A stretch of DNA of 64,000 nt from Monoglobus pectinilyticus (lineage in GTDB: Bacteria; Bacillota; Clostridia; Monoglobales; Monoglobaceae), in the NCBI RefSeq assembly GCF_002874775.1, contig NZ_CP020991.1:1927225-1991224 (forward strand). Reading direction: 5' to 3'. A program made the position numbers and the translations under genes. Positions 5,882 to 40,127 of the stretch are shown here, piece after piece. Every line of letters begins with the position of its first letter. The stretch's first letter is position 1. The notes under the pieces are model-generated. The model had not been told where the DNA came from and searched no databases. It worked only from the letters and a program-made list of their open reading frames with translations.

Positions 5882-5912
5882 ATAAAACTCCTCCATAATA
5901 TATTGTTCATTA

Positions 5913-5941
5913 ATTATAGCATAATCGATGAAAAATTTCAA
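5913..5941 (-). promoter_or_regulatory. Promoter of the copper-amine-oxidase-N gene
   Basis: On the minus strand: TTGAAA (5941-5936), 17-base spacer, TATAAT (5918-5913). About 30 bases of leader precede the chosen ATG, which also supports the shorter start. Confidence 0.65.
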
Positions 5942-6315
5942 GGGTGTTTTTATAGTTTTCAGATAAGTCATTTTTTTACAGAGTGTATAAAAATATTATA
6001 GATATATTTGTAAATCAATTTAAGAATAAACGGTATTTTATATGTTGAAGTTTAATGATTTTAAATGGTGTTACAGAGTGAAATATAAAGTGTAATGGAG
6101 TGAAATATTTTATATGTTATATTGTAGTTGCTCGAATAAAGTGTAAAGAAATGTTTAGGTTATATCTAATATAAAATTATATAAAAACGTATGGGGTATA
6201 AGCATCGTGGAGATTGTGACTACTCCTGTAAGATAGGTATTATTCACAATTACTTTTTATATTTAAACCTTGGAAAGACTGCAACAAACTAAACGGAAAG
6301 GTTAATGGTGTTTTT
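5942..6315. other. AT-rich gene-free stretch before the repeat array
   Basis: No credible gene. It contains an imperfect local repeat (GAGTGAAATAT twice, near 6078 and 6104, each near an ATTTTATATGTT). A GTATAAGCATCG... segment near 6194 could be a very decayed copy of the adjacent repeat. Nothing else is supported. Confidence 0.5.
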
Positions 6316-7145
6316 AGTGAACGTTAGTAGGATATGCTAGAATTCCTAATTGTTATTATATCACGTGAGGCTTGAGTACACAATTTATATTTACTAAAAT
6401 CTTTTTATAATAAACTTTTCCATGGCTGTGCACCTTACGCGGCGTGCTTCGTACGCCCTTCCGAAGCTTGCTATACCGCATTATTCTAAAATTTTTTAGA
6501 ATTAATATTTTAAAAAGTGTTTTTTGGTGAACATCGGCAGGGTGTGCAAGCGCACACCTCGTTAGGTGAGCTGTCATCTCACGCGAAGCGTGAACATATA
6601 TAAAAAAGTTTGTTATAATCCTTTTTATTAAATAAATTATTCCGCGGCTGCGCACCTTACGCGGCGTACTTCGTACGCCCTTCCGAAGCTTGTTATACCG
6701 CATTATTTTTGAAAACTTTTTAAAATTAATATCTTAAAAAAGTGTTTCTTGGTGAACATCGGCAGGGTGTGCAAGCGCACACCTCGTTAGGTGAGCTGTC
6801 ATCTCATGCGAAGCGTGAACATATATAAAAAAGTTGGTTATAATCCTTTTTGCTAATAAACTTTTCCGCGGCTGCGCACCTTACGCGGCGTACTACGTAC
6901 GCCATTCCGAAGCTTGCTATACCGCATTATTTTTGAAAATTTTTTAGAATTAATATCTTAAAAAAGTGTCTCTTGGTGAACATCGGCAGGGTATGCAAGC
7001 GCACACCTCGTTAGGTGAGCTGTCATCTCATGCGAAGCGTGAACATAATTAAAAAAGTTTGTCATAATTCTTTTTATAATAAACTTTTCCGCGGCTGCGC
7101 ACCTTACGCGGCAGATTTCATCTGCCCTCCTATGCTTACTATGCC
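6316..7145 (+). repeat. Tandem array of a ~223-bp hairpin-rich repeat
   Basis: The CCGCGGCTGCGCACC segment (CCATGGCTGTGCACC in the first unit) starts at 6420, 6642, 6866 and 7089, giving periods of 222, 224 and 223 bases. Each unit contains: a G/C-rich stem closed by CCGCG/CGCGG; a GGCGTAC-TTC-GTACGCC hairpin; CCGAAGCTTGCTATACCGC; an AT-rich spacer; GAACATCGGCAGG; a GGTGTGC-AAGC-GCACACC hairpin; ACCTCGTTAGGT; and a CACGC-GAA-GCGTG hairpin. Copies vary by paired changes: the fourth unit has GGCAGAT/ATCTGCC in place of GGCGTAC/GTACGCC. A decayed copy opens the array (6316-6395). Open frames here on the minus strand simply read through the repeat and have no ribosome binding sites. Confidence 0.9.
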
Positions 7146-7336
7146 ACAATTTCAGACGTTATTGGCATATAAAAAACAATATCTATTAATATATTATTTT
7201 GAACAAGTATGGTCACACCTGTTTGGTTTTCAAGTAAACTATTATTACAATATAGACCATTTGTATATTACAAAATTCAATAGAGTTATCTGATATTAAA
7301 TTTTAAATTTTATAATGAATTGTTTTATAGAATATA

Positions 7337-7364
7337 AAATGCCCGCTTTATATGCGGGCATTTT
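7337..7364 (-). terminator. Terminator of the zinc-ribbon protein gene
   Basis: AAAATGCCCGC / GCGGGCATTTT hairpin with a short AT loop, just past the stop codon of the minus-strand gene. On that strand the stem runs into a T-rich tail. Confidence 0.8.
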
Positions 7365-7374
7365 GAATAGTGTC

Positions 7375-8409
7375 TTAAGCCATAATTACTATTTGATTTT
7401 CAGAATTCATAAGATATATAATCAAATATTGGTTACCATTTTCGTATACAACATAGGAATCTTTGCCTTGAGCGTCAAACTTTGTCTGTGAGTATCCGGC
7501 GTTTTTTAAAGCATCAAGATACTTGTTATAAGCGTCCATATCCATTTCATATTTATAGTAAGTATTGCCGCTGTTATCAGTCTCTGAAGCTGTCATAGTT
7601 TTTCCGGTAACACTTTCAAATTTGGGTATAGTAGACTTTGCATAGAATTCATATGTTCCGTCTCCGGTCGGCCACTCGTAATCTTTGCTTGAAGCGGAAT
7701 TGCCGTTTCTGTCGGTTGGAAGAGGATCGCTCACCTGTCCGCCTGAACCGCCGTTATTTCCGTTTCCATAACCGCCGCCGTTGTTCCCGGGAGTTCCGTT
7801 GTTTCCGTTTCCATAACCGCCGTTGCCGCCTGAACCATTATTATTTCCGTATCCTTTATAACCGCCGCCGGAATCACCGCCGCTGCCATTGTTGTTTCCG
7901 TTTCCATAGTTATAACCGCCGCCGTATTTACCGAAATAATCACCGTATTGATTAAAAAAGTCACCATATTCGTCATAGCCGCCGCTGTCCGGGATGTTTC
8001 CATAATTATGGGCGCCGTACTGTTGATGAACACGGTTATCTTGTGCGCCATATCTTTGGGTTTTAAAAGTGCTGTAGACAGAAAATCCAATAAACACCAA
8101 AACAACTGCAAGAGATATAGCGGCAATCGGTATAGTTATTTCTCTGCCCCACAGTTTTTTATGATTATTTGGCTGATAAGAAATAGGTTGTTCAATGTAT
8201 CCGTTCTGTGCCTGTGTAACTCCCAAATTGTAAGCCGCATTAGTAAACGGACTTTCTGTATTTTCGATAGGGTCATTATTGCTTTGATATGTGGTGCTGT
8301 CCTTCGAATAAGAGCTTTGTTCCTTTTCGTCAGATCTTGCTATTGTGCCGCATGCGTCGCAATATTTGGCGTCATCCGGTAATTTCTTTCCGCAATTACT
8401 GCAAAACAT
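7375..8409 (-). CDS. Zinc-ribbon membrane protein with Gly/Asn/Tyr-rich linker
   Basis: 344 residues from the ATG at 8409, chosen over a GTG three codons upstream because GGAGTGAGG is better placed. The N-terminus is a four-Cys zinc ribbon (CSNCGKKL...YCDACG). Next come a polar stretch, one membrane helix (IPIAAISLAVVLVFIGFSV), a long low-complexity region built from GGYGNGNN-type repeats, and a C-terminal domain of about 110 residues (PTGDGTYEFYAKS... to YLIIYLMNSENQIVIMA). The layout suggests a cytoplasmic zinc ribbon and an external C-terminal domain joined by a flexible spacer. No function is recognised. A similar zinc ribbon plus GY-rich plus helix build occurs in the gene at 27026. Confidence 0.75.
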   Translation of the reverse strand: MFCSNCGKKLPDDAKYCDACGTIARSDEKEQSSYSKDSTTYQSNNDPIENTESPFTNAAYNLGVTQAQNGYIEQPISYQPNNHKKLWGREITIPIAAISLAVVLVFIGFSVYSTFKTQRYGAQDNRVHQQYGAHNYGNIPDSGGYDEYGDFFNQYGDYFGKYGGGYNYGNGNNNGSGGDSGGGYKGYGNNNGSGGNGGYGNGNNGTPGNNGGGYGNGNNGGSGGQVSDPLPTDRNGNSASSKDYEWPTGDGTYEFYAKSTIPKFESVTGKTMTASETDNSGNTYYKYEMDMDAYNKYLDALKNAGYSQTKFDAQGKDSYVVYENGNQYLIIYLMNSENQIVIMA

Positions 8410-39101: not shown

Positions 39102-40127
39102 TTATCCTATTATAGCTTGGCCAATAACTCGGCCCATTTTTTCTCTTGAAAAGTTTGTTAAAAATGAATTCCTTGCATTTTCTCCGATATAATTATATTT
39201 GTCAGTATAAAAAATATCAGAGATAACTTTATGTACGCTTGATTTATCTTTTGTTATAAGCAGACCGTTTTCACCGTCTTTAATATACATTTCACTCAAA
39301 GTGCTTGGCTTTGTAACAATTATTATTTTTTTAAATGACATGGATGTCAGTAAAACTGTATCTCCCGAACATATTCTGCCGTCGTCTATTGGAAGAATCA
39401 CGGCTTTAGAGTTTATTATAAATGGATATTGCCCGTCTCCGGTTATATCATCTATTAATAAAACGTTATCGGGCAAAACTTTAGGTTTAAACGTGTCTGA
39501 TATTATAACAAGAGTTTCGTTAATACCCTGCCAGGAATCCAAAAGAAAGTTATAATCCCTGTTTGACCGTCCAATTGCCAACACATAATCTGTTGATTTT
39601 ATCTTTTCAGGTTTTTCCGAATCTTTCCATTGACCGTACATATCGTTTATTCCGAAAGTAGTAACAATAAACTTGCTGAGTGGTATATTAAAATCCCGGC
39701 TGCATTGATTTGCGTAGTTTTGTGACGGAACGTGTATAAAATTAATATAGTCTCCGCTGAGACAGGTTTTCATAAACCATTTATATATTCGTCCTGAAAA
39801 TCCTGATTTTTGTTTATATGTAAAATTTATAACAACAACTTTATTTTTCTTTTTAGTCCTAAAAATTCTGCACCAAAAGCAGAATACCAAAGCGTAAAAT
39901 TGCTGCCAGCCTAAAATATAATTATATTGGTCACGTTTAAGAAAATACAAAAAAGTTATATAAAAATACATTAAATAACGTTTGATAACATTAAAAATTC
40001 CTCTGCTCCCCCAGTTTGCAATTATGGATTTACATTCAAAATTGAGGTCAGTTTCTTTGTTAAGACCGTTGAGCAGGGAGGCTACTTCGTCAGTTACACA
40101 ATCGGCAAGCACTATATTCTTTTTCAT
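39102..40127 (-). CDS. GT-B-type glycosyltransferase on the opposite strand
   Basis: 341 residues. N-terminal MKKNIVLADCVTDEVASLL, hydrophobic membrane-associating patch near 50-66, then VLAIGRSNRDYNFLLDSW and late DDGRICSGDTVLLTSMSFKK with KDGENGLLI. That matches the GT4 donor-binding half but diverges from the textbook E-x7-E motif. It is the only minus-strand gene within the EPS locus and has its own promoter and a good AAGGAGA ribosome binding site. It could be a later insertion or a separately controlled modification enzyme. Confidence 0.75.
   Translation of the reverse strand: MKKNIVLADCVTDEVASLLNGLNKETDLNFECKSIIANWGSRGIFNVIKRYLMYFYITFLYFLKRDQYNYILGWQQFYALVFCFWCRIFRTKKKNKVVVINFTYKQKSGFSGRIYKWFMKTCLSGDYINFIHVPSQNYANQCSRDFNIPLSKFIVTTFGINDMYGQWKDSEKPEKIKSTDYVLAIGRSNRDYNFLLDSWQGINETLVIISDTFKPKVLPDNVLLIDDITGDGQYPFIINSKAVILPIDDGRICSGDTVLLTSMSFKKIIIVTKPSTLSEMYIKDGENGLLITKDKSSVHKVISDIFYTDKYNYIGENARNSFLTNFSREKMGRVIGQAIIG

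Follow-up and report, generated by a model that had tools for sequence, protein, structure and literature searches.

The tandem hairpin repeat in a 64,000-nucleotide stretch of the Monoglobus pectinilyticus chromosome (hereafter the window; contig NZ_CP020991.1, positions 1,927,225 to 1,991,224) probably represents the cargo of a non-autonomous mobile element now decayed, one of a set of IS3-derived MITE islands with a REPIN-like cargo. Many islands elsewhere in the genome look like elements of this same kind. A non-autonomous mobile character was among the readings offered when the repeat was first described, and that part of the description holds.

The array had been read from its letters as hairpins repeated in tandem at about 223 bp without a recognisable gene, and closer analysis agrees on both counts. 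Tandem Repeats Finder places it at 6401–7112 (period 224, 3.2 copies, 92% matches, score 1215), copies of a 63-bp family lie at 6397, 6619, 6843 and 7066 (spacing 222, 224 and 223), and the stems are as they had been read. Three units are full and one is decayed; by eye, the repeat holds one element of about 50 bp twice, in opposite orientations. The island begins to the left of the array as it was first noted, at a transposon-type end of about 6271–6320, and on the right side the end model recognises no IS3-type end. Its parts, together with a lone copy of the module elsewhere in the window, are the following.

6271–6320, + strand: left end of the island, an IS3-type terminal repeat that starts TGGAAAGACTGCAACAAACTAAACGG (end profile E 5.3e-13; genome-wide end model R2 E 4.7e-7; this end, at genome 1933498–1933543, belongs to the training set of both)
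6311–6400, + strand: decayed 5′ half of the first unit, its hairpin lost (by eye against the consensus)
6424–6479, + strand: 3′ half of the first unit (inverted X element), with the outer hairpin GGCGTGC-TTC-GTACGCC at 6441–6457
6460–6534, no strand assigned: AT-rich linker between units, with inverted ends CCGAAGCTTGC / GTGAACATCGG
6535–6681, + strand: module M1 copy 1, comprising H1, long-range stem K, H2, AT-rich core, K′ and H3 (GGCGTAC-TTC-GTACGCC, 6663–6679); covariance model R1, 158.7 bits; alignment A1
6682–6759, no strand assigned: AT-rich linker
6760–6905, + strand: module M1 copy 2, H3 GGCGTAC-TAC-GTACGCC at 6887–6903; R1, 152.0 bits
6906–6983, no strand assigned: AT-rich linker
6984–7128, + strand: module M1 copy 3, H3 GGCAGAT-TTC-ATCTGCC at 7110–7126; R1, 157.5 bits
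26485–26629 (genome 1953709–1953853), + strand: lone M1 copy; R1, 124.2 bits

Folding two of the window copies against dinucleotide shuffles gave z-scores of −3.79/−3.11 and −3.49/−3.24 on the two strands. Because the array has 70 matches in the same genome and folds better than such shuffles, it is not a product of chance. One of its hairpins occurs once as CACGC-GAA-GCGTG and twice as CATGC-GAA-GCGTG; the two CATGC copies are adjacent and may reflect a single inherited change.

The recurring module, M1, was defined from 66 aligned half-units and 46 distinct full units of the genome, the latter forming alignment A1. It spans 133–148 bp and consists of the hairpin H1, the strand CGTTAGGTGAGC, the hairpin H2 (TCACGCGAAGCGTGA), an AT-rich core, the strand GCGCGCCTTACG, which pairs with CGTTAGGTGAGC to form stem K, and the hairpin H3. 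By eye, its halves are inverted relatives of each other, each running from a foot CGGNAGG through a hairpin to a knee CGTWAGGTG. The building block is a REP-like element of about 50 bp, X, made of the foot CGGNAGG, a hairpin and the knee CGTTAGGTGMGC, and an inverted pair of X makes up the palindromic M1. Outside M1, feet of three kinds occur in many combinations, left and right not being matched (by eye), and linkers join adjacent hairpins.

A covariance model search of the genome and its relatives, as the original prediction had proposed, returned at least 80 M1 matches in 45 clusters in the genome (2,757,678 bp, a single contig; model R1), a lower bound in which some of the weakest matches are partial. 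Among 39 relatives, including 11 congeners, a single congener (G008) gave 11 weak matches and the other 38 genomes gave none. The clusters lie between longer ORFs, 8 of the 45 overlapping putative ORFs of 92–201 aa from a simple ORF caller. Their flanking ORFs are arranged ++ in 15 cases, -- in 13, +- in 9 and -+ in 8; where the flanking genes are co-directional, M1 has the same orientation in 14 cases and the opposite one in 14 (hand count). Identity between copies at different loci averages 71% (maximum 86%), whereas distinct copies within one locus average 85% (maximum 97%); since identity is lower between loci than within them, the dispersal of M1 would be old and its local multiplication more recent. 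Phage records held no M1 match, and no stretch of the viral contigs carried either of two M1 patterns. The pattern search of genome contigs found 30 stretches, 11 from Candidatus Monoglobus merdigallinarum and 19 from other genomes; we take the latter as chance, the Gallimonas one resembling coding sequence by eye.

Several observations adjoin this distribution. None of the 80 M1 matches listed falls in 0–658 kb or 2.574–2.757 Mb of the genome, together about 840 kb or 30% of the chromosome, and in scattered samples, too noisy to support a link with the origin or terminus, the GC skew changes sign near 0.1–0.24 and 1.15–1.22 Mb. At 1785400–1785700 there is a tandem array of a different hairpin unit (TGTGACCCCACC..GGTGG..TGTGATACAAAATAACTTG..), akin by eye to the module often seen after M1 elsewhere among the islands. 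X-type half-units at 2587742, 2433720 and 2434219 adjoin another repeated non-coding element, with a motif around TTTCTTTTTCTCGCAAGAAAAAGAAA and CGTAGGCGACCTAAGCGAGC. Congener G008 has X pairs with an inner palindrome (for example AGGTGCGCAGCCGCGG / CCGCGGCTGCGCACCT) and, by eye, without the H2 hairpin, so that the architecture appears to have been kept while the sequence changed. At about 1337–1375 of locus L061 of the same congener there is a GGGATTAGAGATTAGGG-like repeat; the matches listed for it come from nine congeners and from G017, which belongs to a different genus of the same family.

Many of the islands resemble an insertion sequence at their ends. By eye, the consensus of left ends is about TGAAAAGTCAACAGAAAACTAGACAGAAAATTAAGG and that of right ends, read inward, about TGGAAAGGCTACAATAAACTGGACAGAAATGTTAAGG. 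The end model R2 has 54 matches in the genome, 36 of them at most 700 bp from an M1 cluster, a zone that makes up 2.9% of the genome; as all but one of the 34 training sequences were taken from stretches with M1 clusters, this nearness is partly circular, the orientation less so. Thirty of the 36 ends face inward, none faces outward and 6 lie inside clusters. An inward end stands on at least one side of 24 of the 45 clusters and on both sides of 4, and at 21 the end model recognises no end.

Four IS left ends that had been held out of training scored 37.0, 24.8, 15.4 and 8.5 bits, scores reached by 0, 0, 0 and 1 of 20000 null window stretches; three of them stand at copies with a transposase match, and the fourth, at 923.6 kb, was recognised as an IS copy by eye. 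The IS right ends match the island end weakly, being reached by 4 to 131 of 20000 null stretches. The shared ends expected of an IS3-derived MITE are thus seen on the left, with a weak match on the right. As to the parent, at 2678479 just 65 bp separate the start of an end match from an OrfA with HTH_Tnp_1 (E 9.2e-7), and a 146-aa piece at another IS copy matches NF033516 (transpos_IS3; E 1.5e-36, 126.4 bits, below the full-length cut-off of 160) as well as Pfam rve_2. PF00665 has matches at five places in the genome: an intact 312-aa, IS481-like gene at 190816, three of IS3 type whose frames are short or broken by stops, and a weak fifth at 2342218. No intact IS3 transposase was found, the IS3-type copies examined (leaving out the weak match at 2342218) being fragments or carrying stops.

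Comparison with a second strain, TSDC17.2-1.2, bears on past movement of the IS itself. At 923.6 kb, ...GAATATAA is followed by an IS left end (TGGATAGG...); at 2466.7 kb, an IS right end (...GACTATCCA) stands before TAATCTTATT. Where the genome has these two IS ends, TSDC17.2-1.2 has an uninterrupted site (about 39586–39590 of its contig), and the IS ends, TG...CA, are flanked by the 3-bp repeat TAA. IS3 elements duplicate 3 bp of their target. With an OrfA of the HTH_Tnp_1 type, an OrfB with rve and a 3-bp duplication made by the IS, the parent has the features of the IS3 family. An element with TG...CA ends would therefore have transposed, in the simplest case after the divergence of the two strains, and because the two halves of the site stand apart, at 923.6 and 2466.7 kb, a rearrangement would have followed the insertion. 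We note that positions 923607 and 2466658, 1.54 Mb apart, form one site in TSDC17.2-1.2 with breakpoints exactly at the IS3 ends, which may be due to rearrangement between IS copies or else to differing assemblies. The target duplications of the islands are only suggestive: among 14 islands delimited by hand, 3 have matching 3-bp duplications (TTT, ATT, AAC), 1 is ambiguous and 10 have none.

An IS200/IS605 origin, which had also been put forward together with a search for a Y1 transposase, was rejected: neither PF01797 (Y1_Tnp) nor PF07282 (TnpB zinc ribbon) had a match in the genome, in searches that were positive in 5 and 6 of 14 control genomes, respectively.

Among the rival explanations, the one that survives best replaces the IS3-type engine by another: M1 would be a strict REPIN, its inverted REP doublets having been mobilised by a RAYT (Y1, HUH) transposase that the species has since lost. 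The earlier label of a REP-like element does hold for the architecture (an inverted palindromic doublet, in high copy, between genes), and PMC3116915 describes REPINs as inverted doublets that occur in high copy, cluster in tandem and undergo compensatory changes. The hairpin is preceded by GNAG in 32 of the 46 units, and Y1_Tnp matches occur in 13 of the 39 relatives and in 2 of the 11 congeners, neither of the two being an M1 carrier. However, Y1_Tnp is absent from the genome and from the other carrier, G008 (74% complete), the terminal tetranucleotide, which in REPs is GTAG or CGTC, is not fixed, reading GTAG in 12 of the 46 units, and IS3-type inward ends stand at 24 of the 45 clusters. 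We consider a strict REPIN unlikely, and we did not file M1 as a REP because there is no RAYT and because the tetranucleotide is not fixed.

We compared 30 of the 45 clusters with TSDC17.2-1.2 (29 stretches and a locus at 1443 kb), taking the array lengths of that strain from its deposited assembly. A 24-kb stretch of the window is 98.5% identical to TSDC17.2-1.2 over 78% of its length; the array is embedded there in the same gene order and in nearly identical flanks, and it is longer by one unit in TSDC17.2-1.2, where its last H3 stem is GGCGTAC/GTACGCC as against GGCAGAT/ATCTGCC here. Across the 30 islands, which occupy the same sites in both strains (29 of the second-strain stretches having been chosen for holding M1, so that empty island sites could not appear), length agrees to within 1 bp in 9, differs by 19–76 bp in 4 and differs by 180–873 bp in 17; in one of these 17 (1080913) the difference lies about 410 bp away from M1. 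The differences in the cases inspected amount to whole units or modules; the array at 996–998 kb, for instance, has 5 copies in one strain and 3 in the other. The island at 1443 kb was found independently of M1 content. Here TSDC17.2-1.2 keeps both ends and lacks about 530 bp of the interior, including M1, between short direct repeats, so that this is not a clean empty site; the ends and the cargo are therefore separable. In PLSDB, contigs NZ_OY725726 to NZ_OY725745 of TSDC17.2-1.2 are labelled as plasmids, and at least one of them, NZ_OY725743, with metG, ruvA and ruvB, resembles part of the chromosome.

The hairpins themselves also differ between the strains. In 243 aligned hairpins with perfect 7-bp arms, 29 loops differ, and 7 of these 29 are exact inversions of 3–8 nt. 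One affects H1 in the M1 copy at 1832791 (TTAC/GTAA), and six affect other hairpins. In the single-copy M1 at 1528766, the sole difference in 146 columns is an exact inversion of the H3 loop, TAC to GTA. No ORF of at least 90 aa contains any of the 7 inversions or either of two further ones, whose arms measure 5 and 10 bp; those that also lie outside M1 are at 888762, 1748092, 1832608, 2427674, 1767181 and 1077681, and by eye some of these hairpins resemble terminators. Within one genome, the co-occurrence of a loop with its reverse complement was not significant for H1 (286 of 5000 shuffles) or H3 (1679 of 5000). In the parts of PMC8794818 that treat it, loop inversion is described as a footprint of template switching, also in Firmicutes rRNA; there, loop inversions alone and multiple compensations exceed simulation, and compensation together with loop inversion is very rare and not above simulation.

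Such processes invite an explanation in which a palindromic DNA repeat spreads by replication and recombination alone, through template switching and hairpin exchange, with the IS3-type ends as bystanders. It gains from the loop inversions between strains, from the three kinds of feet that flank M1 in many combinations (by eye), from the X pairs of G008, which stand without detectable IS3-type ends (0 R2 matches in that genome), and from the separability of ends and interior at 1443 kb. On the other hand, all 30 of the nearby ends outside clusters face inward, and 45 dispersed clusters would be hard to obtain without insertion machinery. Spread by these means alone therefore seems to us quite improbable, and IS3-derived islands, reshaped by such processes, are the better account.

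The pairing of the stems raises the question of an RNA. In alignment A1, 92.0% of cells pair as against 85.4% in shuffles, 128 cells have changed on both sides as against 38.8, and the covariation score is 0.259 as against 0.129 (each 0 of 500 shuffles); the number of further pair types is not above shuffles (457 of 500). Covarying pairs number 6 of 7 in H1 and 5 of 7 in H3, whereas no pair in stems K and H2 has changed in both partners. The covariation of the outer hairpins is real, as the original prediction had supposed in pointing to stem changes that keep pairing; its hint of RNA in the G-T wobbles fared less well. Over the 46 units, G-T on the + strand occurs in 63 cells and A-C (G-T on the − strand) in 28, and single columns supply 40 of the former and 10 of the latter: without the largest G-T column the counts are 23 and 28, and without both largest columns 23 and 18. 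The wobbles thus show no clear strand bias. Five folded units give about equal values on both strands, with z from −3.8 to −1.1, the weakest (−1.28/−1.08) being little better than shuffles. The palindromes are real, and nothing points firmly to one strand.

A functional structured RNA, either an sRNA or a cis-element, dispersed in the genome would draw on the covariation of H1 and H3 and on the better folding of the window copies than of shuffles. It would also draw on promoter-like sites, of which a pattern match places TGAACA-17-TATAAT within two M1 copies of the window (6591–6619 and 6816–6844) and which number 14 in 5900–7400 as against 7.3 (sd 3.0) in shuffles. Against it stand the wobbles and the folding, both near strand-neutral, the stems K and H2, the 14:14 orientation to genes and a copy number that is fluid between strains; in addition, Rfam gave no match at the gathering score, the best sub-threshold E being 0.43. 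The RNA proposed originally is consequently very unlikely in our view; an RNA function is not needed for the paired stems. The structure had been expected, were it incidental, to decay without preserved pairing among genome-wide copies. Pairing is in fact preserved, yet a DNA-level process can preserve it. Such a process acts on these hairpins and can account for covariation, in part or in whole, and the matching stem changes may arise from copying errors of DNA at palindromes rather than from a working RNA.

The recombination sites of integrons, attC, carry consensus boxes GTTRRRY ... RYYYAAC, which the knees GTTAGGT and GCCTAAC resemble, but an integron-like attC array is close to refuted, as no integron integrase exceeds the cut-off in the genome (best 57.1 bits against 265, with a model that also matches below cut-off in all 14 control genomes) and the window's array shows no cassette genes.

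Returning to the IS3-derived islands, the history that we favour would run as follows. The element X, as an inverted pair, would have given the palindromic M1 (H1 - K - H2 - AT core - K′ - H3), which occurs in the islands either alone or as a tandem array, about half of the islands having an end that matches decayed IS3-family copies. An IS3-type DDE transposase would have moved the islands in trans through the shared ends, which would make them MITEs; transposition is presumably now rare or stopped, as no intact IS3 transposase was found. Arrays would change in length by unequal recombination or slippage, and loops would invert by replication template switching or by some other exchange at inverted repeats. 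Template switching can copy one arm of a stem onto the other, and could so produce stem changes that look compensatory. A bolder version, which we put forward tentatively, is that M1 now leads a transposase-free life: having ridden on IS3 and outlived it, it may be kept paired, re-oriented and reshuffled by template switching at its own hairpins. If so, a mutational process, rather than selection on RNA, would lie behind the genome-wide covariation, and the repeats would bear its traces in a species alive today.

Functional RNAs are usually recognised by the covariation of their stems. M1 covaries strongly without a clear strand preference, and its hairpins invert between strains; the family therefore offers a test case for distinguishing RNA selection from template switching, and it counsels caution where covariation is used to find RNAs among repeat families. 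As its arrays vary between strains, they also provide a set of markers for a gut bacterium; M1 itself is a REPIN-like element without a RAYT. A literature search found no account of the repetitive intergenic DNA of Monoglobus, and among the papers listed on IS3-derived MITEs and on palindromic MITEs with Clostridium no such element appeared.

Among known systems, as far as the cited sources describe them, REPINs (PMC3116915; REP definition, PMC3733652) share with M1 the inverted doublet of short palindromes, the intergenic location, the high copy number, the tandem arrangement and the compensatory hairpin changes. Unlike REPINs, M1 occurs in a genome without a RAYT, its tetranucleotide varies, its unit is larger with extra hairpins, and IS3-type ends stand at about half of the clusters. 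IS-derived MITEs (PMC10969869) are likewise non-coding, AT-rich and intergenic, with strong predicted folds and terminal inverted repeats in common with a resident IS, but the target duplications of the islands are weak, many islands are composite or lack a recognisable end, and their tandem cargo varies between strains; IS3 does not appear as a term in the main text of that review. The BOX elements of Streptococcus pneumoniae (PMC3049150) are modular too (boxA-boxB-boxC), and the number of their tandem inner modules varies by strain; such pneumococcal repeats insert into one another, according to part of PMC10969869. The likeness to BOX is one of description: the inner module of M1 is a palindromic pair with interchangeable feet, and its likely parent IS is decayed but identifiable. 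Template-switch hairpins (PMC8794818) show the same loop inversion between perfect arms and the same instant compensation of a stem through one switch, there in rRNA and microRNA genes and here in non-coding bacterial repeats and other intergenic hairpins. The combination works like a REPIN inside a MITE, and is a variant of already described kinds of element.
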